Source of the DNA: an uncultured bacterium | GTDB taxonomy: Bacteria > Actinomycetota > Actinomycetes > S36-B12 | Assembly (NCBI GenBank): GCA_903909555.1 | Contig: CAIVWG010000118.1 | Location: 1-38,500 of the forward strand | DNA: 38,500 nt | Direction of reading: 5' to 3' | Shown here: positions 7,844 to 23,270 of the stretch, in pieces | How the letters are laid out: the number at the start of each line of letters is the position of its first letter | Numbering within the stretch: the stretch's first letter is position 1 | Notes under the pieces: model-generated | Seen by the model: only the letters and a program-made list of their open reading frames with translations | The model's database searches: none | What the model was told of the DNA's origin: nothing | Translations under genes and position numbers: made by a program

Positions 7844-8977
7844 TCAGGTGACCGCCACGAGGCCCATGTCCGCGCAGCCGCGCTCGAGTGCGTCGAGGCC
7901 GAAGGCGTCCACGGGGCCGTGCGCCCCCGGCGCCACCGCCTGCGTCGCGGCCATGGCCGCGCCCCACGCCAGCAGGTCGGCGGTGAGGTCGTACGGCGAG
8001 GGTCCCTCCAGGCGCACGGACACCAGCGGGCGCCCGACGGCATCGGCGGCGTCCGCCTGCACCAGGGTGCGCGCAGCGGCGCGCGCGGACGCGTCGGGGC
8101 CGACCCCGGTGGTCCGGGCGGCCCGGCGGCTCACGTGGGCGAGCACGCCCTCTCCCACGCCGGGAAGCGCGGCGAGAGTCCCGAGAGCGGAGCCGGCGTA
8201 CGACGCCGTCGTCGTCCAGCGTCCGGCCCAGCCCAGCCACACCTCCACGTCCGAGAGCGCCGGATCCAGGAGCGGAAGAGCGAGGTGCTCGCTGCCCGCG
8301 ACCGGGAGGCCCTTCCAGGAGCGCCCACGCCCGAGGTCGAACTGGCGGACCCGGCCCCCGGTCGACCGTCGCTCGGCCACGACTCCGCTGCGGTAGGCGA
8401 ACGACGGCGCGACCAGCACGCCGAGCGCGCTCGCGCGCGTCCCGGAGCTCACGCCGAACCGACCCTCGATGAAGTACCCGATGTCGAGCCGCGATGCCGG
8501 GCGTCCGGCGTCTCGGCAGCGTCGCAACGCGAGCCCACCGGCGAGGTTGCCCGGCACGTAGTCGTAGCCGAAGGCGGGCATGAGGCGCGCACCCGTCTCG
8601 CGCGCCCGCGGGCCGAACTCGTCGAACACGCGCCGGATGAACGGCGGCTCGCCGGTGGAGTCGAGGTACGCCGCGCCCGCTGCCACTGCGGCCTCGACGG
8701 CGGGCAGCCCCAGATCGAGGAACGGGCCGACGGTGGTGACGAGCACGTCGTCGGGAGACTGGAGGAGAGCGCGCACGGAGTCGGCATCGGTCACGTCGGC
8801 CAGGGCGATGCGCGGCTCGTCGGCCGGGGACGGCGCCAGGGGCGCGAGGCGGTCGGCGAGGCGGCTCACGGAGTCGTGGTGGCGCCCGGCGAGGACCGGG
8901 GCGAGCCCCGCGCGGACCATCGCGGCCGCGGTGAGACGGCCGGTGTACCCCGTGGCCCCGAGCAGGACGATGCGCAT
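7844..8977 (-). CDS. Saccharopine dehydrogenase NADP-binding-fold / trans-acting enoyl reductase-like protein
   Basis: MRIVLLGATGYTGRLTAAAMVRAGLAPVLAGR Rossmann motif; AYLDSTGEPPFIRRVFDEFGPRARETGARLMPAFGYDYVPGNLAG; start chosen at 8977 from the upstream -10-like element. Confidence 0.85.
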   Translation of the reverse strand: MRIVLLGATGYTGRLTAAAMVRAGLAPVLAGRHHDSVSRLADRLAPLAPSPADEPRIALADVTDADSVRALLQSPDDVLVTTVGPFLDLGLPAVEAAVAAGAAYLDSTGEPPFIRRVFDEFGPRARETGARLMPAFGYDYVPGNLAGGLALRRCRDAGRPASRLDIGYFIEGRFGVSSGTRASALGVLVAPSFAYRSGVVAERRSTGGRVRQFDLGRGRSWKGLPVAGSEHLALPLLDPALSDVEVWLGWAGRWTTTASYAGSALGTLAALPGVGEGVLAHVSRRAARTTGVGPDASARAAARTLVQADAADAVGRPLVSVRLEGPSPYDLTADLLAWGAAMAATQAVAPGAHGPVDAFGLDALERGCADMGLVAVT

Positions 8978-9000: not shown

Positions 9001-10404
9001 GTGGACCCTGCCTCGCCCGCCGTCACCACGCGGCTGTGGCATCCCTTCGCCGACATGGCCGCGGTGTCCGCCTCGGGGGAACTCGTGCTGGAGTCGGGCG
9101 AGGGGGCGTACGTCGTCGACGAGGAGGGCCGCCGGTACCTCGATGCCGCGGCCGGCCTGTGGTACTGCAACGTCGGGCACGGCCGGCGGGAGATCGCCGA
9201 GGCCGCGGCCGCCCAGATGACGCGCCTGGCGGCGTACTCCGCCTTCGGCGACCTCGCCACGCGCCCCGCGCTCGACCTCTCCGAGCGGCTCTCGGCGATG
9301 GCGCCGATGCCGGACGCGCGCGTGTTCCTCACCAGCGGCGGCAGCGACTCGGTCGACACCGCGGTCAAGCTGGTACGCCGCTACTGGACGGAGGTGGGGC
9401 GCCCGGAGCGCACCGCCATCGTGACGCGCACCCACGCGTATCACGGCATGCACCTCGCGGGGACCAGCCTCGCCGGGATCGCCGCCAACCGCCTCGGCCA
9501 CGGAGATCTCGATGCCGCCGTCGTGCAGGTCGACTGGGACGACTCCGGCTCCCTGGAGGCGGTGCTCGACGAGCGCGACGACGTCGCCGCCTTCTTCTGC
9601 GAGCCCGTCATCGGAGCGGGCGGCGTCTACGCGCCTCCCCCGGGATACCTCCGGGAGGTGCGTGAACTCTGCCGGCGCCACGACGTGCTCTTCGTCGCCG
9701 ACGAGGTCATCACCGGCTACGGGCGCGTGGGCATCATGTTCGGCAGCGAACGCTGGAACCTCCGGCCCGATGTCGTCCTCACAGCCAAGGGCATCACCTC
9801 CGGCTACGTCCCTCTCGGTGCGGTCCTCGTCTCCGGGCGTGTCGCGGAGCCGTTCTGGGTGGATCGCGGATCTCCCGTCATGTGGCGGCACGGCTACACC
9901 TATTCCGCGCACGCGACCGCGTGCGCCGCCGCCCTGGCCAACCTCGACATCGTCGAGCGCGAGGGCCTGGTGGAGCGGGTCGCTTCACTCCAGCACGTCC
10001 TCGGCCGCGCGCTAGCGCCACTGTCCGCGTACGACGCGGTGTCGGAGGTGCGCGCGGGCGTGGGCCTCCTCGGGGCCGTGGAGTTCACGCCGGACGCGGT
10101 CGGCACGGGGATGCCGGCCCGGGTCATCGCCGGGCTGCGCGAGCGCGGCGTGCTCACGCGCACGCTCGCCTCCGGGGCGATCCAGGTGTCGCCGTCGTTC
10201 GTGGTGTCCGAGGCCGACATCGCGGTGATCGCGGCGGCCCTCGAGGAGTCCCTCCGCTCCGCCGGGGCCGTGCGCGCCTCGGCGGCCCGCGTCGACCCTG
10301 CGGCCCCGCTCGGCGGGTCCCTGCTCGGCAACCCCAGCCCGGGAGAGCGTGCCGTCGCCTTCGACGATCGGTACTACGCCGACCAGCGCCCGCCTCACCA
10401 CTGA
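9001..10404 (+). CDS. Class III (PLP-dependent) aminotransferase, omega-amino acid transaminase-like
   Basis: RRYLDAAAGLWYCNVGHGRREIAEAAAAQM; LFVADEVITGYGRVGIMFGSERWNLRPDVVLTAKGITSGYVPLGAVLVS (PLP Lys). Confidence 0.95.
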   Translation: MDPASPAVTTRLWHPFADMAAVSASGELVLESGEGAYVVDEEGRRYLDAAAGLWYCNVGHGRREIAEAAAAQMTRLAAYSAFGDLATRPALDLSERLSAMAPMPDARVFLTSGGSDSVDTAVKLVRRYWTEVGRPERTAIVTRTHAYHGMHLAGTSLAGIAANRLGHGDLDAAVVQVDWDDSGSLEAVLDERDDVAAFFCEPVIGAGGVYAPPPGYLREVRELCRRHDVLFVADEVITGYGRVGIMFGSERWNLRPDVVLTAKGITSGYVPLGAVLVSGRVAEPFWVDRGSPVMWRHGYTYSAHATACAAALANLDIVEREGLVERVASLQHVLGRALAPLSAYDAVSEVRAGVGLLGAVEFTPDAVGTGMPARVIAGLRERGVLTRTLASGAIQVSPSFVVSEADIAVIAAALEESLRSAGAVRASAARVDPAAPLGGSLLGNPSPGERAVAFDDRYYADQRPPHH

Positions 10405-10521: not shown

Positions 10522-11349
10522 ATGGACCAGGGAACCGTCCGCGAGTTCATCCGACCCTCGGTGGAGGACCCCACCTCGGAGTGGCAGCCCGGGGACGCGT
10601 GGCTGGCCGGGGGGACCTTCCTCTTCTCGACGCCCCTGCCGGACATGCGCCGGCTGATCGACCTGACGACCCTCGGCTGGCCCAGCCTCGAGGTGAGCGA
10701 TCGGGGACTCCGGATCGCCGCCACCTGCCGCGTGGTCGAGCTGTACGACTTCGATCCGCCCGCCGAGTGGACGGCGGGCCCCTTCCTCCGTGAGGCCGTG
10801 GATTCCTTCCTCGCCGGATTCAAGATCTGGAACACGGCCACGGTCGGGGGGAACATCTGCACGTCGCTTCCCGCCTCTCCCATGACGACCATGGGGGCTG
10901 CGCTCGATGCGACCCTGGAGATCTGGGGCCCGGAGGGAGCGCGACGCACGATGAGCGTGCCCGACTTCATCCTGAGCAATCACGTCAACGCCCTGAAGCC
11001 GGGCGAACTACTGCGGGCGATCGACATCCCGCTCGAGTCGCTCATGCGTCGCTACTCCTATCAGCGATTCACCCTCACCAAGCACGGTCGCTCGAGCGAG
11101 TTCCTCGTCGGTACGTCGGACCCGAGGAAGCGCGACCTGATGCTCACCATCACGGCTGCCACGTCACGGCCCTTCGTCCTGAGGTTTGCCGTCATGCCAT
11201 CGGCCGCGGAGCTTCACGACGCGATCACCTCGGCGGTCAGCGACCCCGACTACTTCGACGATCCCAATGGGAGCCCGGCCCACCGCAAGCACATGACCTA
11301 CTACCTGGCCGAAGTCATCCGCACGGACCTCGCAGGGGAGGCGTCATGA
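10522..11349 (+). CDS. Molybdenum hydroxylase FAD-binding subunit (xanthine dehydrogenase/CODH medium-subunit family)
   Basis: LAGGTFLFSTP FAD motif, FKIWNTATVGGNICTSLPASPM (TxGGN motif); immediately upstream of the fused Fe-S/Mo subunit with ATGA overlap. Confidence 0.9.
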   Translation: MDQGTVREFIRPSVEDPTSEWQPGDAWLAGGTFLFSTPLPDMRRLIDLTTLGWPSLEVSDRGLRIAATCRVVELYDFDPPAEWTAGPFLREAVDSFLAGFKIWNTATVGGNICTSLPASPMTTMGAALDATLEIWGPEGARRTMSVPDFILSNHVNALKPGELLRAIDIPLESLMRRYSYQRFTLTKHGRSSEFLVGTSDPRKRDLMLTITAATSRPFVLRFAVMPSAAELHDAITSAVSDPDYFDDPNGSPAHRKHMTYYLAEVIRTDLAGEAS

Positions 11350-14075
11350 CGTACACGATCAATGGCACGGAGTTCCACTCCACGCCCGCTCCCGGGCAGT
11401 GCCTGCGTACGTTCCTGCGCGATCTGGGTCACATGGGTGTCAAGAAGGGCTGTGATGCGGGCGACTGCGGGGCCTGCACGGTATGGATCGACGGGCATCC
11501 CGTGCACAGCTGCATCACCTCGGCGGAGCAGATGCGCGGACGCAGCGTGACCACCATCGAGGGCCTGGCCGACGGCGACGCCCTGCACCCGATGCAGGAG
11601 CAGTTCCTCAAGGCCCCCGGCTTCCAGTGCGGCTTCTGCACCGCCGGGATGATCATGACCTGTGCATCGCTCAACGATGAGCAGCGTGCCGACCTTCCGG
11701 CGGCGCTGCGCGGCAGTCTCTGCCGATGCACCGGATTCCGAGCCATCCACGACGCTATCGATGGCGTCGCCCACGTCGAGTCCGACGTGTCACCGGGCAA
11801 GGAGATCGGCGCCAGCGTCGGTGCCCTCGAAGGGCCAGGCGTCGTCACCGGCACGGTGCGCTACACCATGGACGAGGTCCCTGCCGGGGTCGCCCACCTG
11901 AAGGTGGTGCGGTCCCCGCATGCGCACGCACGCGTCATCGGTATCGACACCTCCAAAGCCAAGGCCGTGCCGGGCGTGCTCGGCGTGTTCACGTGGGAGG
12001 ACTCGCCGACCAAGAGGTTCTCGACGGCACTCCACGAGAACCACCTCGTCGATGCCTCCGACACCCTCGTACTCGATCGCGTGGCCCGATTCAAGGGCCA
12101 GCGCATGGTGGCCGTCGTGGCGGAGACCGTGGCGGCTGCCGAAGAGGGCTGCCGCCAGGTAGCCATCGACTGGGAAGTCCTGCCTGCCGTGACCGACGTG
12201 GAAGAGGCACTTCTTCCCGGCGCGCCCCATGTGCACGATCGGGGCGAGGACGCCTGGATCGTCAACCCCGAGAAGAACATCGTGGCCGCGCTGGAGTTCG
12301 GGCGAGGCGACCTTGACGAGGGGCTCGCGGCCGCCGACGTGATTCACCGGGCGACCTACCGCACGCCGCGCCAGGTGCACGCCCAACTGGAGACTCACGG
12401 CAGCATCGCCTGGGTCGACGAGTCCGGGCTCGTCCAGGTCCGCACGAGCACGCAGGCGCCGTTCATCACGATGGAGAAGCTCGCGCACATCTTCGACATG
12501 CGCCAGAGTCAGTTCCACGTCTTCACCGGACGCGTAGGTGGCGGATTCGGCAGCAAGCAGGAGATGCTCACCGAAGACCTGCCGGTGCTCGCGACCCTGC
12601 GCCTCGGGGTCCCGGTGCAGTGGGAGTGGACCCGCGAGGAGGAGTTCATCGGGGGCACCACCCGGCACCCCATGATCATCGAGGTGACTCTCGGAGCGAC
12701 GAACGACGGACGCCTCACGGCGATGGCTCTCGACGTCACCTCCAACACGGGCGCCTACGGCAACCACGGCGGCGAGACGCTGGGAGCGAGCTCCGCCCCC
12801 TTGGCCGGGTACCGGTGCCGCAACAAGCGGTTCACCGGCCGAGCTGTTTACACCAACGTGGTTCCGGCGGGCGCCATCCGCGGCTACGGCGCGGCGCAGC
12901 CCACGTTCGCGATGGAGTCGGCCATCGACGAACTCGCACTCAAGCTCGGCATGTCGCCGCTGGAGTTCCGCCGCCTCAACGGGCTGAAGCCGGGCGACAC
13001 GATCGGCGTGGGCGGAGCGCCCAATGATGACGTGATGAGCAGTTACGGCCTCGATCAGTGCTTCGACATGGTGGCCAGCGCCATCGAGTCAGGGCCTTCG
13101 CTGCCCGCCCCCGAGGGCCCGGAGTGGTCCACCGGTGTCGGCTTCGGGATGTCGATGTACGACACGTCGCCCCCGACCGAGCATCGCTCCGACGCCAGCG
13201 TCGAGGTCCTCCCCGACGGCACCTATCTCCTCCGCGTGGGCACGTGCGAATTTGGCAACGGCACCACGACCTCCCACGTGCAGTTCGCCGCGGCCGCCTT
13301 GCGAACCACGATGGATCGCGTCGCCATCCGCCATGGCGACACGGCGGAGTCCGGATGGGACACCGGCGCGTTCGCCCAGACCGGGCTGAACGTCGCGGGT
13401 CGCGCGGTGACCCTGGCCGCCGAGGGACTGCGACTGCGCATCCTGGAGTACGCAGGACGCTTCGCGGAGGAGGGAGCCCGCATCGAGCTGCTTCCCGACT
13501 CCGTCGTGGTGGGAGACCAGCAGATCTCCTTGGCCGAACTGTGGCGCAGGGCCGATGCCGATGGGGTGACCCTCGGCCAGGCGCGTCGGGCCTATGGCAC
13601 GCCCATCAGCGTCGGCTTCAACGTCACGGGCGTGCGCGCGGCCGTCAACAGCGTCACCGGTGAGATTCGGCTCCTTCAGGTTGCGCACGCCGTCGACGCG
13701 GGGGTCGTGATCAACCCGCAGCAGCTGCGCGGTCAGGTCGAGGGAGGGGTCACGATGGGCATCGGCTTCGCCATGACCGAGTGGCACCAGATGACCGACG
13801 ACGGCACGATCCTCAACCCCGGCATCCGGATGTACCGCATCCCCAACTACGCGGACGTCCCTCCGATCCAGGTCTTCTTCTCCGAGGATGCGGACGGCGT
13901 GGGGCCCTTCGGAGCCAAGGGCTGCGCGGAGTCGCCCATCGATCCGGTGGCCCCGGCCATCGCCAACGCGGTGGCCGATGCCACGGGGGTGCGGATCCGC
14001 GAACTCCCCCTCGTGCCGCCGCTCATCTTCGAGCGGCTGTACGACGAGTACCTTCAGCGCACCCCAGCGGTCTAG
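11346..14075 (+). CDS. Fused 2Fe-2S / molybdopterin-binding subunit of a xanthine dehydrogenase-family molybdenum hydroxylase
   Basis: N-terminal GCDAGDCGACTVWIDGHPVHSC and CGFCTAGMIM...CRCTGF (two 2Fe-2S sites); C-terminal GRVGGGFGSKQE, PAGAIRGYGAAQPTFAMES, GPFGAKGCAESPIDPVAPAIANAV. Confidence 0.95.
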   Translation: MTYTINGTEFHSTPAPGQCLRTFLRDLGHMGVKKGCDAGDCGACTVWIDGHPVHSCITSAEQMRGRSVTTIEGLADGDALHPMQEQFLKAPGFQCGFCTAGMIMTCASLNDEQRADLPAALRGSLCRCTGFRAIHDAIDGVAHVESDVSPGKEIGASVGALEGPGVVTGTVRYTMDEVPAGVAHLKVVRSPHAHARVIGIDTSKAKAVPGVLGVFTWEDSPTKRFSTALHENHLVDASDTLVLDRVARFKGQRMVAVVAETVAAAEEGCRQVAIDWEVLPAVTDVEEALLPGAPHVHDRGEDAWIVNPEKNIVAALEFGRGDLDEGLAAADVIHRATYRTPRQVHAQLETHGSIAWVDESGLVQVRTSTQAPFITMEKLAHIFDMRQSQFHVFTGRVGGGFGSKQEMLTEDLPVLATLRLGVPVQWEWTREEEFIGGTTRHPMIIEVTLGATNDGRLTAMALDVTSNTGAYGNHGGETLGASSAPLAGYRCRNKRFTGRAVYTNVVPAGAIRGYGAAQPTFAMESAIDELALKLGMSPLEFRRLNGLKPGDTIGVGGAPNDDVMSSYGLDQCFDMVASAIESGPSLPAPEGPEWSTGVGFGMSMYDTSPPTEHRSDASVEVLPDGTYLLRVGTCEFGNGTTTSHVQFAAAALRTTMDRVAIRHGDTAESGWDTGAFAQTGLNVAGRAVTLAAEGLRLRILEYAGRFAEEGARIELLPDSVVVGDQQISLAELWRRADADGVTLGQARRAYGTPISVGFNVTGVRAAVNSVTGEIRLLQVAHAVDAGVVINPQQLRGQVEGGVTMGIGFAMTEWHQMTDDGTILNPGIRMYRIPNYADVPPIQVFFSEDADGVGPFGAKGCAESPIDPVAPAIANAVADATGVRIRELPLVPPLIFERLYDEYLQRTPAV

Positions 14076-14109
14076 CGGGCGCCCCGTCCGCAACAGAGGA
14101 GGCACAGGC

Positions 14110-15171
14110 ATGGCGAACGCAGTCCCCGACTTCATGCGGCCGGTCGTCGTCGACGAGCCGCCGGCGAGTGCCCAGTTGGTCGCGGAGCAGGCGGTCCTGG
14201 CACTCAATGACTCCATGATGCGCTACTACGACGCATCGCTGGCGAAGTTCATCGCCAACCTGCGCGAGCAGTCGCCCATCATCCTGGCGATGTTCACGGG
14301 GCAGGGTGGCCAGATGATCCTGTACCGACCCGGACGGGACCCGGAGCACGCACCTCCGGTGCCCCTGGTCTACCAACTGGCCAAGTCAGTCGGGCACAGC
14401 AGCATGGCGATCTACGAGATCGTCTCGCCCTACATGTCGAATGCGCACGCCAACCAGCTGTGGCGGGCGCCCCTCGAGACCTACCGCACCGAGAATCGCC
14501 TGGCACTCGAGGGCCTCGATGCCCTGGATATCAGTGAGGAGACACGGTCGATCCTGCGGGAGATCCTCGGGCTCAACCTGGCCTTCATGGACGAATGCCT
14601 GGCCAGGGGCGGCTACGGCCCTGACGACATCCGGGACTTCGTGCGCAGCACGGTGCCGCACGCCTTCAAGGCGATCGGCGTGGGGTCGGGTGCGCAGGTC
14701 GGCCACTGGATGAGCGTCGTGGAGCGCTGGCAGGAGGAGCTCGGCGACGACTGGGATCGAACGTACGCGGTGAGCAACACGCTGTACGTCACCCGCCAGA
14801 ACAACATCCTCTTCAGCGTCCTTGCGCAGTTCATGGGTGAGGGGGCTATCGGCGACCGACTGCTCCTCATCGAGACACCGGAGTTCGAGACGACGCCGGA
14901 GAAGATGCTCGACGTGCTCGGCCGCATCATCGCGGACCGCTCCCTCGGCATGATGTTCTTCCGCGACTACTTCCTCATGGACGTGGAGCTCCTCGGTGGC
15001 GGCGCCCGAGCGGCCATCGAGCGCGAGATGGCGGCACGGGGCCGGACGCCGGTGCTGCCGCCCCTGGTCCCCTTCCGATCCTCCGACTGGCCCTGGAAGA
15101 CGGATCCGACGAAGGGGACGGGCCCGGCGCGACTCCAGGACGCCGCCTTCGACACCCCTGTCGAGTACTAG
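14110..15171 (+). CDS. Uncharacterised 353-aa protein encoded within the molybdenum hydroxylase operon
   Basis: Uninterrupted frame starting MANAVPDFMRPVVVDEPPASAQLVAEQAVLALNDSMMRYYDASLAKFIANLREQSPIILAMF, with GAGGAGG-type RBS upstream (caacagaggaggcacaggcATG); no family recognised. Confidence 0.85.
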   Translation: MANAVPDFMRPVVVDEPPASAQLVAEQAVLALNDSMMRYYDASLAKFIANLREQSPIILAMFTGQGGQMILYRPGRDPEHAPPVPLVYQLAKSVGHSSMAIYEIVSPYMSNAHANQLWRAPLETYRTENRLALEGLDALDISEETRSILREILGLNLAFMDECLARGGYGPDDIRDFVRSTVPHAFKAIGVGSGAQVGHWMSVVERWQEELGDDWDRTYAVSNTLYVTRQNNILFSVLAQFMGEGAIGDRLLLIETPEFETTPEKMLDVLGRIIADRSLGMMFFRDYFLMDVELLGGGARAAIEREMAARGRTPVLPPLVPFRSSDWPWKTDPTKGTGPARLQDAAFDTPVEY

Positions 15172-15179
15172 GGGATCCC

Positions 15180-15974
15180 ATGTCGTCGGAGGTCATCCAC
15201 CATGAGGTGGTCGGCGAGGGGATGCCCATCGTCTTCATCCACGGGTTGGGGGCGACATCGAATGTCTGGTTCGCCGAGCGCGAGGCGCTGAGCGAGCGCT
15301 TCCGGGTCGTGGTCTACGACCGCAGCGGCTGCGGACAATCGTCCCGACGGGACGATGGCTACTCCGTCGAGTCCTGGGGCGCTGAACTCGCCGGCCTCCT
15401 GGACGATCTCGGAGTCGAGACCGCGGTCGTGGTCGGCCACTCGCTGGGCAGCATGGTCGCCCAGCACTTTGCCGCCACGTATCCCGAGCGAACCCGCGCG
15501 CTCGTCCTGGTGGGGGCCGAGGCCGCGCTCAGCCCGGAGGGCAGGGACATCCTCAGCACGCGGGCGAGCCTCATCGAAGAGCGTGGCCTCTCCGGCGTCG
15601 TCGACTCGTGGCTCGGTTCGGTGCTCGCGCCAGCGAGCCGGCTTGCCAACCCCGTCATGGCAGGGCTGCTGCGAGCGATGTTCCTCTCCTACGACGCGCG
15701 CTCCTACGCTCAGCAGGCGAGGGCCCTGCGCGACGCCGATGTGCGTCCCCAGCACCGCGGCATCTCCTGCCCCACTCTCCTCCTCGCCGGCGACGAGGAC
15801 CCGGTGACTCCCCTGGCCTGGCAGCAGGCCATTCACGAAGCCATCCGCGGCAGTCAGGTGCGCATCATCCCCGGCACGGCGCACATGCCCATGCTGGAAT
15901 CTCCGATGGAGTTCCACGTCGCGCTTCTCGAGTTCCTCACCGGACTGGGGCCGCCTGCCCGGGGGGAATCGTGA
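15180..15974 (+). CDS. Alpha/beta hydrolase (3-oxoadipate enol-lactonase-like fold)
   Basis: IVFIHGLGATSNVWF oxyanion motif, VVGHSLGSMVAQHFA nucleophile elbow, LLAGDEDPVTP acid, GTAHMPMLE His. Confidence 0.92.
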   Translation: MSSEVIHHEVVGEGMPIVFIHGLGATSNVWFAEREALSERFRVVVYDRSGCGQSSRRDDGYSVESWGAELAGLLDDLGVETAVVVGHSLGSMVAQHFAATYPERTRALVLVGAEAALSPEGRDILSTRASLIEERGLSGVVDSWLGSVLAPASRLANPVMAGLLRAMFLSYDARSYAQQARALRDADVRPQHRGISCPTLLLAGDEDPVTPLAWQQAIHEAIRGSQVRIIPGTAHMPMLESPMEFHVALLEFLTGLGPPARGES

Positions 15975-16008: not shown

Positions 16009-16680
16009 GTGGCCCTGGTGGGAAGCGATGCGCCGGCGATGACCCGCAGCCTGCTCCTGGTGGAGGACGATCCGTTCTCACGGGGACTCCTCGAGCAGAC
16101 CTTCCGCGCTGCCGGATTCGAGGTGGCGGCGGCCGCCAACGCGGTCGAGGCGGTGCGGCTGTTCGAGGAGGCCGACCCGGACGCGCTGGTCGTCGATATC
16201 AACCTGGGGCCGGGCGCCGACGGGCTCGAGCTGGCCAATGCCCTGCGATCGCAGGCGCCGTACCTCGCCGTCCTCGTCCTCACGCGATTCCCGTCGCCGG
16301 CGGTCGCGGGCATGAGTGACCGGACTCCGCCGCACGCCGCCTTCCTCAGCAAGGACGCGGCCGACGACCCCTCGGTCATCGTCGCCGCCCTCGAGTCGGC
16401 GCTCGACGACGAGGTGCCCCCCGTCACCGGGGTCGCGCCTGACAGCCCCCTGGCGCGGCTCACCCCCGCGCAGCTCGCCGTGCTGCGGATGGTGGCCGAG
16501 GGCTGGACCAATGCCGAGATCGCCGCCCAGCGCGGGAGCACCCTGCGCGCGATCGAGAAACTCACGCACCGCGCCATCGTGGCACTGGGCATTCCCGACG
16601 ATGCACGGCGCAACGCCCGCGTCGAAGCCGTGCGCATGTACGTCGCCGCCTTCGGCGTGCCCACCCCCCGCGATGGCTGA
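16009..16680 (+). CDS. Two-component response regulator, receiver plus LuxR-type HTH
   Basis: LLLVEDDPFSRGLLEQTF, VVDINLGPGADGLEL (phosphoacceptor Asp), VLTRF, FLSKDA (Lys); LTPAQLAVLRMVAEGWTNAEIAAQRGSTLRAIEKLTHRAIVALGI HTH. Confidence 0.92.
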   Translation: MALVGSDAPAMTRSLLLVEDDPFSRGLLEQTFRAAGFEVAAAANAVEAVRLFEEADPDALVVDINLGPGADGLELANALRSQAPYLAVLVLTRFPSPAVAGMSDRTPPHAAFLSKDAADDPSVIVAALESALDDEVPPVTGVAPDSPLARLTPAQLAVLRMVAEGWTNAEIAAQRGSTLRAIEKLTHRAIVALGIPDDARRNARVEAVRMYVAAFGVPTPRDG

Positions 16681-18505
16681 CGCACGCGGGCCCGAGGCCC
16701 TCACGCCAGCGTGGCGGGCCGCCGTCGGCGGCCGTCACGCGCTCTCCGTGTGGTCGTGGCTGCTGCCCACCGCGGCGGCGCTCGCGTTCACGACCCTCTT
16801 CGAGGTGCCCGCGTTCGGCTACCGACTGTGGCCCCGGGTGGTCCTCGTGCTCTGCGTGCAGGTCCTCCTCATCCCCCTCATGGTCCTGGGATACGCCCTG
16901 CTCCGTCGGCAGGCTCTCCCCAACCCGGTGCTGGGCTTGTCGGTCTTCGTGGCTCTCGGCCTCGCTCGCGGACTCGCGGTCGACGGCGTCGCCCCCCTGA
17001 TCGAGCCGGTGGCGAGGGACTCCCTCGCCTACCAGCTCGCTCTCAATGTCACGTACGCGCTGCTCACTCTGCCCTTCATCGCCCTGGCAGTCGACTCCGT
17101 CCGGCGCTACCGGGATCTGCGCGCCCGCGTGCACGACGAGGGCCTCCGTTGGCAGAGCGCCCTGAAGGAGGCGGAGTCGGAGTTCGCGCTCGAGTATGCC
17201 CGCTACCGCGAGAAGGTCGACCACGAGGTCGTGGCGCGCGTCGTCCACCTGCACGACGAACTCGCCTCAGTCGCGCGCGAGGCGGCGGGCGCGGGAGCGG
17301 TCGCGGGTGCGGAGGAACTCCGGCGACTGTCGGCCGAGGTCGTGCGCCCTCTCAGCCACGAACTCATCCTCGAACCGACGAGCATCGAGGTCATCCCCGC
17401 CCCGTTCTCTGCCCCCCCGCCGCATCTGGGTGTGCGGGACATCCTCCGAGAGGCGTCCCGGTGGCCCCTGGCCGGGCACTGGGGCGTCTGCGCCGTGATG
17501 GGCCTGCTCGGTCTGGTCGGCCTGTCCCTGTATGGATCGTCGACCCTGCTGGCCCTCAACCTCGGATGGGACATCGTCATCTTCGGTCTCATCCCGGCGG
17601 CGGTGGCACCGACGATCAACGCGCTGTGGGCGCGCATGTCGCCGGCGTGGGCCTGGATCGCAAGCGTCGCCCTCTGGTTGGCGTTCGGCGTCGTCGCCGT
17701 CGCCGTCACCGCGGTCCTGATGGCCTGGATCACCGGCCGCGGGAACGCGTTCTGGGGAGTGACGGTGGCGTACATCGTCCTCTGCGCGCTCTCGGTGGTC
17801 GCGGTCGCCGGCTACCGCCGCGAGCGGGCGCTCGAGGCCGAGCTCACGGGCCTCCTCACGCGGCAGGAGGCTCTGGCATCGCGCCTCATGCAGCGCATTG
17901 GCCGTGAGCGTCGTGATCTCGGCCTCGTGCTTCACGGCTCGGTGCAGTCGAGCCTGACCCGGGCAGCCCTGGCCCTGGACCGCTGGGGCGCGACGCTGGA
18001 CCCGGAGACCCTGCCCGCCGTGATCGCGGAGGTGCGCGTGGCCCTTGAGGGCGTGGTGAGCGCACTCGACGTCCGCGATCCCCTTCATGCCGGGCTCGAG
18101 GTGGTCGTCCGGGATCGGCTGCGCCTGTGGGAGGGCGCCGTCGACTGCCGAGCGGCCATCTCGACGGAGGCGACGGCAGCCGCGGACAGTGCCGTAGCCC
18201 ATGCCGTGGGCGAGATCGTGGGGGAGGCCATCACGAATGCCGTCCGTCACGGGCATGCCGAGACGGTCGAGGTCGACGTTGCCCTCGAGGGCGACTGGAT
18301 CAGCGTCCGCGTCTGGGACGACGGCCTCGGTCCGGTGGACACGCGCGACCTCGGAGCGGGCCTCGGCACCCTGGGCCGCGCCGGCTTCTCGTGGAGCCTG
18401 GAGCGGGTGGGAGGACGGACCCTGCTCACCGTCCGCCTCGGCCTTCCGAGAGGCCCGGTCATGGAAACCGAACAGTGGGAGGGGCCGGCGACGGTGATTG
18501 CCTAG
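16673..18505 (+). CDS. Membrane sensor histidine kinase with two separate transmembrane blocks
   Basis: GRERRDLGLVLHGSVQSSLTRAALALDRWG phospho-His region; N-box EAITNAVRHG, G1 VWDDGLGP, G2 GAGLGTLGRAG; starts in an 8-bp overlap with the regulator (ATGGCTGA). Confidence 0.88.
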   Translation: MADARGPEALTPAWRAAVGGRHALSVWSWLLPTAAALAFTTLFEVPAFGYRLWPRVVLVLCVQVLLIPLMVLGYALLRRQALPNPVLGLSVFVALGLARGLAVDGVAPLIEPVARDSLAYQLALNVTYALLTLPFIALAVDSVRRYRDLRARVHDEGLRWQSALKEAESEFALEYARYREKVDHEVVARVVHLHDELASVAREAAGAGAVAGAEELRRLSAEVVRPLSHELILEPTSIEVIPAPFSAPPPHLGVRDILREASRWPLAGHWGVCAVMGLLGLVGLSLYGSSTLLALNLGWDIVIFGLIPAAVAPTINALWARMSPAWAWIASVALWLAFGVVAVAVTAVLMAWITGRGNAFWGVTVAYIVLCALSVVAVAGYRRERALEAELTGLLTRQEALASRLMQRIGRERRDLGLVLHGSVQSSLTRAALALDRWGATLDPETLPAVIAEVRVALEGVVSALDVRDPLHAGLEVVVRDRLRLWEGAVDCRAAISTEATAAADSAVAHAVGEIVGEAITNAVRHGHAETVEVDVALEGDWISVRVWDDGLGPVDTRDLGAGLGTLGRAGFSWSLERVGGRTLLTVRLGLPRGPVMETEQWEGPATVIA

Positions 18506-18514: not shown

Positions 18515-19501
18515 GTGACCACCTCCCCGCTTGCGCCCCCCGCTGTCTTCCTCCTCACCGCTCACGTGTTCGTGCGGAATGACCAGGAGGGTGCCTTCCG
18601 CGAACGGCTGCCGGCGATCAACGCCCGATGCGCGGGGGTCACCGGATTCCTCGGCATGGGCGCCGATGCCGACCGTCCGGGACCGGAGTCCACGCGATGG
18701 GCGCTGAGCTACAAGTTCGCGTCTGCGGAGGGTCGCGATGCGTGCCAGGCCCTCCTCGGGCAGGAACTCGACGGTGCTCACGACCTGCTGACGGCGCCCC
18801 CCGTCTTCGACGCGGGGGACCGTGGCGACGAGCGGCGGCCCGTCGAAGCCATCACCACCCGTATCCCCGAGGGGCAGAGGGAGAGGTACGCGTCCTTGCG
18901 CGAGGAGATGGACGCCGTGGTTGCGGCCGCACCGGGATTCGTCAGCCTCGAGACCTTTCCGCCGGGACCGGGCGACGACACGTGGGTGACCATGATCATC
19001 TTCGATTCCCAAGAGGACCTCGACGCCTGGTACGCCTCGCCGAAGCGGCGCGCGGTGCTCACGAAGATCCACGACCTGGCACCGGATGAGGTGCGTACCC
19101 TCCCCACGGGGTTCGGTCAGTGGTTCTCGGTCAACGCCGTGAGCATGGTGCAGACCCCCGCGTGGAAGCAGGCCATGACGGTCCTGGCGGTGCTCTTCGC
19201 GATGGTCTCCATCCTCAACATCACCATCGGCGACGCACTCCTCGGAGGCTGGACCATCCGTGGCCAGACGATCTACGAGGGCTTGGGTCTGCCCTTCCCC
19301 GTCGTGGTGTTCGTCGGCAACGCCATCGGCACGGCGCTCCTCACCTGGGTCCTCATGCCGATCGTCACGCGCCTGCTCGCGTGGTGGCTCGATCCCGGGG
19401 CCTCTCGGCGCCACACGATCATGGGCGTCCTGCTGCTCCTGGTGGTCTACGTCGTGGAGATCGCGATCTTCACGACGATCTTCAAGACCCTCGGGATCTA
19501 G
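18515..19501 (+). CDS. Antibiotic biosynthesis monooxygenase (ABM)-like tandem-domain protein with C-terminal membrane helices
   Basis: Two dimeric alpha/beta-barrel-like stretches (FVRNDQEGAFRERLPAINARCAGVTGFLGMG; TRIPEGQRERYASLREEMDAVVAAAPGFVSLETFPPG...WYASPKRRAVLTKIHDL) followed by about four hydrophobic helices. Confidence 0.75.
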   Translation: MTTSPLAPPAVFLLTAHVFVRNDQEGAFRERLPAINARCAGVTGFLGMGADADRPGPESTRWALSYKFASAEGRDACQALLGQELDGAHDLLTAPPVFDAGDRGDERRPVEAITTRIPEGQRERYASLREEMDAVVAAAPGFVSLETFPPGPGDDTWVTMIIFDSQEDLDAWYASPKRRAVLTKIHDLAPDEVRTLPTGFGQWFSVNAVSMVQTPAWKQAMTVLAVLFAMVSILNITIGDALLGGWTIRGQTIYEGLGLPFPVVVFVGNAIGTALLTWVLMPIVTRLLAWWLDPGASRRHTIMGVLLLLVVYVVEIAIFTTIFKTLGI

Positions 19502-19511
19502 CGACGAGCCC

Positions 19512-21896
19512 CTACGGGTTCCACGGGCCCTTGCGCGGCGACACGGGGTCGTTCATCGGATCACCGGGCACCGCTCTGGCGCTCTCGGCATCCTCGCGGA
19601 TGCGCTTTCGGGCGGGACCCGTCGGTGCGCCCGTGGGCGCGGCGTCCGGATGCAGGTCCGCGACGCGCTCAGGCGTGGCGGGGATGGACGGCAGGGGCAG
19701 CCCCGTGGCCGCGCGGAGCGCGGCGAGCACGGCCGGCGGCCCCTGCACGTGCGGCAGCTCGGCGATCCCGCGCATGCCGTAGGGGATGCGCGGCTCGGGA
19801 TACTCCAGGAAGGTCACGTCGATCCGCGGGGCATCGATCATGGTCGGCACCAGGTAGTCGTCCCAGGTACGACGCGTGGGCACACCGTCGGCGTAGGGAA
19901 ACTCCTCCATGAGCGCGAGCCCCATGCCCATGACGAGGCCGCCCGCGATCTGTCCGGTGGCCTGGGCAGGGTTCACCGTCCTGCCGACGTCCTGCACGAC
20001 ATCCATCTGGACGACCCGCACGAGCCCCAGTTCGCGATCGACGTCGACGGTGCACCGGGTCGCGGAGAAGTTGAACGTCACGTGCATCGGCTGCCCGGGC
20101 TCGCGCCCCTCGAGGTCGTAGGTCTGTCGCTGTGCGAAGCGCTCCGTCGCCTGGAACACCAGGTGCATGCCCGCATCGGACACCGTCATCAACCGGGTGC
20201 CGTCCGTGAGCACGACGTAGTCGTCACGGACGTCGAGATTCTCCACGGCGTGCCCGTACTCGCGGGAGACGAACTTCAAGAAGCGCTCCTTGAGGGTCGC
20301 CGCGGCCATCGCTACCGCGCCGCCGGACGTCATGGTCTGGAGCTGCCCGTCGGTGGTCGAGCCGTCGGCCATGCCCGAGTCGGACCCCGTGATCGTGACC
20401 TTGCTGATGCCCAGAGTCGTCTGGACGATCTGCTCGGCGATGGTCTTGAAGCCCTGTCCCACCTCGGCGGCCGCACACTCGATCACGGCCGCGCCATCGC
20501 GCAGCGTCACCAGCGCCGTCGAGTTCACGGGCGCGCCCTCGGACAGGCACACGTTCTTCGCCACCGACGAGGTCGCCGTCGCACGCGTGACGTCGCGCGG
20601 TCGCGTGGGGGTGGCAATGCCGCCGGGCAGGTCGATACCGGGCGCATCGTCGGCGAGAGGCTCCGGAAGGGGGGACTGCCCGCTCACGTCGATCAACTCG
20701 CGCACGGGAGCCGGGGAGTCCATCAGCTGATTGAAGGTCCAGGTGTCCCCCTCCTTCATCGCATTGCGGCGGCGCAACTCCGCGCCATCCATGCCCAGCG
20801 CTCGCGCAAGGGCGTCCATGTTGGACTCGGAGGCGAACGCCGGCTCGACGACGCCGAAGCCGCGGAGCGATCCGCACATGCCGTTGTTGGTGCCGACTGA
20901 CCACCCCTCGATGTGCGCATTGGGGATGTTGTAGGGCCCCTGCAGAAGGGTGCTGCCGTTGCCGATGCCCGGGCCATTGGTGTTGCTGTAGGGGCCGTCC
21001 TCGTGGATGACCTTGCCCTCGATCTTGACGATCTGGCCGTCCGTGGTCGCGTGGTGGCGAACCCAGATGCGCGTGGGATGGCGGTGGTAGCGCGCGAGGA
21101 AGGCCTCCTCGCGCGAGTAGAGGAACTTCACGGGTCGCTCGGTGTGCAGCGCCAGGAGGGCGCCGTGGATCTGCCAGGACAGGACGAAACGACCGCCGAA
21201 GGACCCGCCGATTCCGGAGTTGATGACGAGCACGCGCTCCGGAGGCAGGCCGAGGGCGGCGGCCACCTGGGCGCGATCGCTGTGCACCCACTGAGTGGCG
21301 CCGGTGATGACGACGCCGCCGCGGCCGTCGGGCTTGGCCACGCCGCCGTCGAGCCCGAGGTAGGAGTGGTCCTGGCGCGGCGTGGTGTACACGCCCTCCA
21401 CCTGCACGTCTCCGACGACACTGGGGTCGCCATGGGTGTAGTCGACGTGGCGGTAGACATGACCCTCCTCGAGGGCGCGCATCATGTCGACGAGGGGATC
21501 GAGGACGTCGTACTCCACCACGATGGCGTCGAGGGCGCGACGGGCGATCTCGGGATCCTCGGCCGCCACGATGGCGATGGGCTCGCCCACGTAGTTGACG
21601 ATCTCATCGGCGAGGACGGGAGTGTCGCGGTTGATCGCACCGTAGCGATTGTCGGGGACGTCCCAGCCGCCCAGGACGGCGTGCACGCCGGGCATCGCCT
21701 TCGCCGGGTTGAGGTCGACGCGCACGAGGCGCGCGTGCGGGTGCGCGGACCTGAGAGTGGCACCCCACAGCATGCCGGGCTCGGTCGCGTCGGGCGCGAA
21801 CTCGAATTCGCCCCGAGCCTTGGCAGTGGCATCCGGACGTCGGCGTGAGGTGCCGATGCCGACGGCGCTGGGATCCGTGCGCAGGTCGTCGCTCAT
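19512..21896 (-). CDS. Molybdopterin-binding (large) subunit of a second xanthine dehydrogenase-family molybdenum hydroxylase
   Basis: RRRPDATAKARGEFEFAPDATEPGMLWGATLRSAHPHARLVRVD; NSGIGGSFGGRFVLSWQIHGALLA; MCGSLRGFGVVEPAFASESNMD; PYGMRGIAELPHVQGPPAVLAALRAATG. Confidence 0.95.
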   Translation of the reverse strand: MSDDLRTDPSAVGIGTSRRRPDATAKARGEFEFAPDATEPGMLWGATLRSAHPHARLVRVDLNPAKAMPGVHAVLGGWDVPDNRYGAINRDTPVLADEIVNYVGEPIAIVAAEDPEIARRALDAIVVEYDVLDPLVDMMRALEEGHVYRHVDYTHGDPSVVGDVQVEGVYTTPRQDHSYLGLDGGVAKPDGRGGVVITGATQWVHSDRAQVAAALGLPPERVLVINSGIGGSFGGRFVLSWQIHGALLALHTERPVKFLYSREEAFLARYHRHPTRIWVRHHATTDGQIVKIEGKVIHEDGPYSNTNGPGIGNGSTLLQGPYNIPNAHIEGWSVGTNNGMCGSLRGFGVVEPAFASESNMDALARALGMDGAELRRRNAMKEGDTWTFNQLMDSPAPVRELIDVSGQSPLPEPLADDAPGIDLPGGIATPTRPRDVTRATATSSVAKNVCLSEGAPVNSTALVTLRDGAAVIECAAAEVGQGFKTIAEQIVQTTLGISKVTITGSDSGMADGSTTDGQLQTMTSGGAVAMAAATLKERFLKFVSREYGHAVENLDVRDDYVVLTDGTRLMTVSDAGMHLVFQATERFAQRQTYDLEGREPGQPMHVTFNFSATRCTVDVDRELGLVRVVQMDVVQDVGRTVNPAQATGQIAGGLVMGMGLALMEEFPYADGVPTRRTWDDYLVPTMIDAPRIDVTFLEYPEPRIPYGMRGIAELPHVQGPPAVLAALRAATGLPLPSIPATPERVADLHPDAAPTGAPTGPARKRIREDAESARAVPGDPMNDPVSPRKGPWNP

Positions 21897-22366
21897 CGTG
21901 CACTCGCCTCCCGGATGCCCTCGATGATGCCCAGGTATGCCGTGCAGCGGCACAGGTTGCCGCACATGCCCTCGCGCACCTCGTCCTCCGTGGCGTTGGG
22001 GTGCTCTTCGATGAACGCCGAGCCGGCCAGGACCATGCCGGGCAGGCAGTACCCGCATTGCACGTCGCCCGCGGCAATCAGGGCTTCCTGCAGGGGGGTG
22101 AGGGATCCGTCGGCGGGGGAGTAGCCCTCGATCGTGGTGACGTCACCGTCCACGTCGGCCGCCAACGCGACACAGGAGTTGATCGGCCGACCGTCGAGGA
22201 GCACCGTGCACGCGCCGCAGGACCCGGTCTCGCAGGCCTGCTTCGTACCCGTGAGTCCCAGTCGGTAGCGCAGCACCGACAGGAGCGTCTCGAAGTACCA
22301 CGCATCCTCGATCCGGTGCGTGGCGCCGTTCACGCGCAGGCTCAGGCTGATCCGCTCGTCATCCAC
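21893..22366 (-). CDS. 2Fe-2S subunit of the second molybdenum hydroxylase
   Basis: ACETGSCGACTVLLDGRPINSC; CGYCLPGMVLAGSAFI; MCGNLCRCTAYLGIIEGI; GTG start, 4-bp overlap with the Mo subunit. Confidence 0.95.
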   Translation of the reverse strand: MDDERISLSLRVNGATHRIEDAWYFETLLSVLRYRLGLTGTKQACETGSCGACTVLLDGRPINSCVALAADVDGDVTTIEGYSPADGSLTPLQEALIAAGDVQCGYCLPGMVLAGSAFIEEHPNATEDEVREGMCGNLCRCTAYLGIIEGIREASAR

Positions 22367-23231
22367 GCTGCTGCTCCTCGTTCCAGGCCTCGATGAGGCG
22401 TCGTCCCATGACGGCAATCGCATGCCGGCGGTAGCCGGCTGACGCCCGGTCATCCGTGGGCGGGTCGCATGCATCGGCGAGCAGCCGCCCGTACTCCTCC
22501 GCGGCGCCTGCGGGCACTGCGCCCGACTCCCAGTCCACGGCCCCGGCGAGGAAGTCGTCCGCCGCGGTCCCAGGCAGGGCCGTGGGGCCGCTGCCGCCGA
22601 TCCCGCTGCGCACCGAGCGCGCGGTCGGATCGATGGACACGGCCACGCTGGCGATGGCGTACCCGGGTCCGTTGCGGGGCGCCACACGGACGAAGCGCTG
22701 GAAGCCCCCGCGCGCGGGCAGGGCGACGTCGACGAGGATCTCGCCCGCGCCCAGTCCCTCGGCCGCGAAGTCGCGGATGGACCGCCGCCGGGAGCCCTCG
22801 GGGCCCGCGCTGCCGACGGAGGCGTCGAGGGCCAGGAGACACGGCGCCAGCGTGTGGGCGGGACGGCGTTCGGCGATGTTCCCGCCCACCGTGGCGCGAT
22901 GGCGGATCTGCGGCGTCGCCAGGGAGCGCAGGGCGACGTCGAGCATGGGGGACAGGGCCGCGTCGAGCAGGGCGCGCAGCGTGGTCTGGGCGCCGATGCG
23001 CGCCGCCCCCCCCGTCGCGGTGGCGCCATCGGAGGTCACGCCCCGAAGCTCGGCAATGCCCGAGAGCAGCAGATAGGCGGGCGGAATGTCGATCCCCAGG
23101 GACCGCTCCGCCACGACGAGGGTGCCTCCGCCCAGGATGCGGGCGTCCGGTCGCTCCGTGCTCGCGGCGATGGCTTCTTCGAGCGACGTGGGGCGCACGA
23201 TGCGCCCCGAATCGGTGGACGTGACGGTCAC
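22359..23231 (-). CDS. FAD-binding subunit of the second molybdenum hydroxylase
   Basis: ARILGGGTLVVAERSLG, ATPQIRHRATVGGNIAERRPAHTLAP; GTG 23231 chosen because it is preceded by gggaggaggcac (strong RBS); ORF extends to 23270. Confidence 0.9.
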   Translation of the reverse strand: MTVTSTDSGRIVRPTSLEEAIAASTERPDARILGGGTLVVAERSLGIDIPPAYLLLSGIAELRGVTSDGATATGGAARIGAQTTLRALLDAALSPMLDVALRSLATPQIRHRATVGGNIAERRPAHTLAPCLLALDASVGSAGPEGSRRRSIRDFAAEGLGAGEILVDVALPARGGFQRFVRVAPRNGPGYAIASVAVSIDPTARSVRSGIGGSGPTALPGTAADDFLAGAVDWESGAVPAGAAEEYGRLLADACDPPTDDRASAGYRRHAIAVMGRRLIEAWNEEQQRG

Positions 23232-23270
23232 CGTGCCTCCTCCCGCGGCACCGCGTGCCGCGGGCGCCAT

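Follow-up and report, generated by a model that had tools for sequence, protein, structure and literature searches.

The target gene of the window (the whole stretch of 38,500 nucleotides analysed here) encodes a 353-residue member of an undescribed protein family, which we found at about 60 loci. Our preferred reading, with a probability of about 0.42, is that the family consists of small-molecule enzymes recruited into several pathways, and that the target provides an optional step rather than a subunit of a Mo enzyme. We read it as a small-molecule enzyme because of its invariant polar and aromatic residues and its enzymatic neighbours.

The target is a real gene. An AGGAGG lies about 6 bp before its ATG, 8 bp separate its end from the next ATG at 15180, and comparison with orthologues at 89% and 87% identity gives dN/dS values of 0.094 and 0.081, indicating strongly purifying selection. 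Mapped open reading frames and domain matches bear out the preliminary description, which had placed the gene between a Mo subunit and a hydrolase with a clear RBS and an 8 bp gap. It had also called the protein soluble and mostly helical, in agreement with the lack of any hydrophobic segment, the highest 19-residue Kyte-Doolittle mean being 1.06, and with a helical AlphaFold model. A simple gene caller based on GC content by codon position missed the target and favoured short antisense ORFs; composition-based callers may thus overlook it.

The target lies in a same-strand gene row (Table 1). The nearest PDB entries to the fused 2Fe-2S/Mo subunit upstream are the aldehyde oxidoreductases 1sij/1vlb. 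The downstream alpha/beta hydrolase scores 181.8 bits against TIGR02427, below the cut-off of 255.85. The sensor kinase gene is co-located in two related loci, L008 and L106. The second Mo-hydroxylase faces the first; comparison with L008 puts its Fe-S subunit near 21.9–22.3 kb, and a relative of its FAD subunit also adjoins a target relative in locus L011. The order FAD subunit, Fe-S/Mo subunit, further enzymes and alpha/beta hydrolase is shared with catabolic clusters of Mo-hydroxylases (xanthine dehydrogenase family), such as those for nicotinate or caffeine. The target is optional and is also found in other pathways. We know of no characterised Mo-hydroxylase catabolic cluster that contains a relative of it.

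Table 1. Features of the window and of related loci. Several of the neighbour calls are mechanical ORF calls; coordinates with a locus prefix refer to that locus.
Feature	Coordinates	Strand	Basis or remark
Class-III aminotransferase, opening the same-strand row	9001-10404	+	NCBIfam aminotransferase matches; order kept in G009
FAD subunit, Mo-hydroxylase 1	10522-11349	+	PF00941, E 8e-18
Fused 2Fe-2S/Mo subunit, Mo-hydroxylase 1	11346-14075	+	PF00111, PF01799, PF01315, PF02738, PF20256
RBS of target, AGGAGG	14098-14103 (approximate)	+	Sequence
Target, undescribed 353-aa protein	14110-15171	+	ATG start, TAG stop; ORF, RBS, dN/dS
Alpha/beta hydrolase, PcaD/RutD-like, 8 bp downstream of target	15180-15974	+	PF00561
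LuxR-type response regulator	16009-16680	+	PF00072, PF00196
Probable sensor kinase, paired with regulator	16673-18505	+	ORF only; start by eye at overlapping ATG
ABM-domain protein with C-terminal membrane segments	18515-19501	+	PF03992; hydropathy
Second, separate Mo-hydroxylase (Mo2, FAD2), facing the first	19512-23270	-	Fe-S subunit by comparison with L008
ABM/target relative/HMG-CoA reductase row	L085:6771-10214
ABM/target relative/HMG-CoA reductase row	L084:6697-9913	-
Rhizobial plasmid operon	L005:1582-8885
Rhizobial plasmid operon	L007:2597-8999

No Pfam family matched the target even at E ≤ 1, and nothing in NCBIfam or PHROGs came near its cut-off. The preliminary description had seen no motif of a known family, which agrees with this, and the match to a characterised Pfam family that it had allowed for was not found. 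Queried with the whole family or its representatives, these three libraries returned only Tat signals and chance matches, and PDB sequences, searched with single sequences and with profiles, gave chance matches only. The earlier label of ‘orphan’ therefore holds in the sense that no named family includes the protein, but not in the sense that it lacks relatives. With tblastn and profiles, relatives at 67–89% identity turned up in actinobacterial MAGs, and two genomes from a different genus (g6) of the window's family have others at 45%. More distant relatives, at about 20–27%, occur in Streptomyces, Kitasatospora, Streptacidiphilus, a Streptosporangiaceae MAG, an acidobacterial MAG, and Agrobacterium and Rhizobium plasmids. 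The rhizobial members represent two plasmid types, and sampling outside Actinomycetota was thin. No relative was found in viral contigs. A profile built only from Streptomyces members recovered the window protein with an E of 2e-25 and reported none of 20,000 shuffled decoys, and hhalign across clades gives a probability of 99.6 (E 1.9e-24). Judged by these profile comparisons, homology across the family's clades is firm. The window clade is monophyletic and distant from the others. Distribution is patchy: the family occurs in 3/59 relatives, 5/166 genomes of the order, 5/395 genomes drawn from the class and 22/247 Streptomyces species. The family gene of Streptomyces musisoli (L037:7887-8960) looks frameshifted, its frame stopping at 8354 while the similarity runs on to 8960.

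Across 21 diverse members from five clades (the window clade and the ABM/HMGR, Streptomyces, rhizobial and acidobacterial members), 16 positions are invariant: Y40, P56, G66, G67, L71, K92, H96, W118, Q196, W207, G212, W215, Y219, R272, D276 and F284. The window protein belongs to the family on ten of them (Y40, K92, H96, W118, Q196, W207, W215, Y219, R272 and D276; alignment A6), and reciprocal profiles and hhalign agree. From the pattern of conservation, the invariant set that includes these ten looks like a putative active or ligand site. Metal chemistry has no sequence support, because just one His and no Glu or Cys is invariant.

Mean pLDDT is 88.6 in the AlphaFold model of a mature Streptomyces relative and 77 in that of the window protein. 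In the predicted fold a small sheet is surrounded by long helices, two of which are separated by a break at H96. The preliminary description had proposed Foldseek on an AlphaFold model: the window model matched nothing at E ≤ 0.001 (best TM about 0.25), and the Streptomyces model gave 4jx2 as its sole match, with a probability of 0.99 over 326 columns but a weak E of 0.016, a TM-score of 0.36 and 10% identity. No fold came closer to the confident family model than this entry, the putative secreted protein lpg1979 of Legionella pneumophila. It is uncharacterised by its title, and the target family's sequence profile did not find it. Text searches on 4jx2/lpg1979, like those on the isochorismatase/Tat operon, turned up nothing relevant.

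The ends of the protein differ between branches. A twin-arginine (Tat) motif is present in 28/31 Streptomyces-type members and absent from the window clade. A C-terminal Cys-Pro occurs in 30/31 Streptomyces-type, 2/2 rhizobial and 2/6 window-clade members; the tail of the window protein has no Cys and is conserved in its own branch and that of genus g6. Between the two ABM-linked genera, residues 1–20 and the tail (281–343) show identities of 0.50–0.65, against 0.44 for the core, and model confidence is low over much of both segments. Docking segments would be expected to show termini of this conserved, low-confidence kind. A tail of the window type is lacking in the Streptomyces and rhizobial members.

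Each of the six window-clade members is found immediately 3′ of a fused Fe-S/Mo subunit, including a paralogous second copy in genome G009. In that copy (L078) the order is Mo subunit, target, MscL. In L011, the Mo subunit is followed by the target, an HbpS-like lipoprotein, and then the FAD and Fe-S subunits of another Mo-hydroxylase. In G002, a genome of the same genus, the Mo orthologue (81%) runs directly into MscL and the target is absent, so the target is dispensable beside a Mo orthologue. At that locus (L070, G002:C136, about 680–720), a few tens of bases lie between the Mo orthologue and MscL, with no target or hydrolase. G012 and G024, from a sister genus, have Mo orthologues at 62% and no target. 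Where neighbours were clustered, Streptomyces-type and rhizobial loci showed no Mo-hydroxylase gene next to them, and the roughly 16 kb examined at the genus-g6 loci contained nothing that matched the window's Mo genes. The target itself has no Fe-S, FAD or Mo domain (PF00111, PF01799, PF00941, PF01315, PF02738 or PF20256; Pfam, E ≤ 1). TorD-like and XdhC-like chaperone models did not match the window protein, and one family member reached only E 0.12 against a DMSO-reductase-II chaperone model.

A Mo-specific component was considered and rejected in view of the G002, G012, G024 and genus-g6 data. The preliminary description had proposed an undescribed component of the Mo-hydroxylase operon. 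The protein is undescribed and lies inside the gene row, but the data, such as those from G002, do not support a role as a component of the Mo enzyme. The association with fused Fe-S/Mo subunits holds only in the window's clade, and other clades have other partners. Family members do occur mostly in unrelated contexts when the whole family is taken, as the preliminary description had considered, but this is not so for the window's clade.

Those other partners fall into distinct sets. An isochorismatase-family hydrolase adjoins 22/28 Streptomyces-type loci with enough flank, and 14/20 in a second set; these loci often also carry a divergent GlxA-type regulator and a CynX-type MFS. Such isochorismatase/GlxA/CynX-MFS rows hold the family's main branch, which is predicted to be Tat-exported, and contain no Mo enzyme; the window protein differs from that branch in having neither the Tat signal nor the C-terminal CP motif. 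The rhizobial operon comprises a substrate-binding protein, a dihydropyrimidinase, an SDR, an HbpS-like protein, an ABC transporter and the target relative; a DUF1445 gene is annotated only in the Agrobacterium operon (L005). HbpS-like proteins (PF03928) are not a general partner, because the window's own genome has none. In genus g6 the order is ABM-membrane protein, target and HMG-CoA reductase; the target and reductase genes share an ATGA overlap. In one of these loci (L085), an isochorismatase lies about 3 kb beyond the three-gene row.

The ABM-membrane protein is the partner common to g6 and the window. Orthologues of the window's ABM gene (threshold at least 225 bits) score 225–735 bits in exactly the five of 166 order genomes that carry the target; all other genomes of the 166 give at most 107 bits. 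Under independence, this co-occurrence would arise by chance about 1 in 1e9, a figure that we do not take at face value because only two lineages are represented. The sound statement is that there are two independent ABM–target co-occurrences with physical linkage. The ABM gene adjoins the target in g6, is four genes away in the window and in L008, and is on a separate contig in G009. No ABM partner was found at the Streptomyces and rhizobial loci tested.

Three other explanations have to be weighed. A maturation chaperone or extra subunit of the Mo-hydroxylase would account for the invariable position of window-clade members, G009's second copy included, directly 3′ of the Mo subunit. We consider this improbable: the target is missing beside the 81% and 62% Mo orthologues, no Mo-hydroxylase was found beside the clustered Streptomyces-type and rhizobial loci or in the g6 loci, and no chaperone family matches. 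The absence from G002 and the Mo-free contexts of other clades are our reasons for disfavouring a Mo-subunit or chaperone role. A non-catalytic protein that holds substrate, or whose conserved flexible tails anchor enzymes to the ABM-membrane protein, is unlikely too. It would fit the terminal segments common to the two ABM-linked genera, the strict co-occurrence with the ABM-membrane gene and the diversity of enzymatic partners across clades, but the invariant polar residues K92, H96, Q196, R272 and D276 exceed what a scaffold needs, and Streptomyces and rhizobial members lack both the tail and, at the loci tested, the ABM partner.

A haem-binding oxygenase, peroxidase or carrier is doubtful, if attractive. 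H96 at the helix kink would be the axial ligand, the aromatic residues would pack the porphyrin, and the Cys-Pro tail would be a haem-regulatory-type motif. The single invariant His, the many invariant aromatics with K92 and R272, and the Cys-Pro ending of nearly all Streptomyces-type, both rhizobial and a minority of window-clade members are consistent with this. So are the HbpS-like neighbours in two lineages (L011 and the rhizobia), the partnership with an ABM family (PF03992), and the Tat signals of most Streptomyces-type members, which fit export after cofactor loading. IDO/TDO-type haem-dependent aromatic oxygenases are likewise helical, have one conserved His and act in aromatic and N-heterocycle pathways. 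But haem binding has no fold support: neither the IDO/TDO-type fold nor other natural haem enzymes were among the Foldseek matches listed for the window and Streptomyces models, and the sequence matches listed included no IDO/TDO-type protein either. The window protein also lacks the tail Cys, and in L011 the HbpS-like gene may be part of the second Mo-hydroxylase next to it. Most HbpS-like and ABM proteins do not depend on haem, which counts against a haem role as well.

The reading as a small-molecule enzyme has its own difficulties. No catalytic motif or cofactor was identified, the partners are so varied that one common reaction is hard to name, and a ligand-binding or structural role would produce the same conservation pattern. 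Against the ABM partnership stand its two lineages only and the four-gene distance in the window. If the family is nonetheless enzymatic, the target would be its cytosolic branch in actinobacterial MAGs, with a putative site formed by K92, H96, Q196, Y219, R272 and D276, and with W118, W207 and W215 as its lining. Its substrate would probably be an oxidised or ring-containing intermediate. In this window, its step would come between hydroxylation by the Mo-hydroxylase and hydrolysis by the alpha/beta hydrolase, possibly together with the co-occurring ABM-membrane protein. More tentatively, these proteins may form a new enzyme family that lacks any solved relative whose function is known; its fold would be helical and include a small sheet, and its site would consist of K92/H96/Q196/R272/D276. 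It would serve in N-heterocycle oxidation, hydantoin-type and isochorismatase-type catabolism and an HMG-CoA reductase operon, being intracellular or, in Streptomyces, Tat-exported.

About 9% of the Streptomyces species sampled carry the family, whose members share residues resembling an active site and have recurrent operon neighbours, but it has no name in any family library. Knowing what it does would supply a step in several unassigned catabolic operons, among them the window's Mo-hydroxylase cluster.
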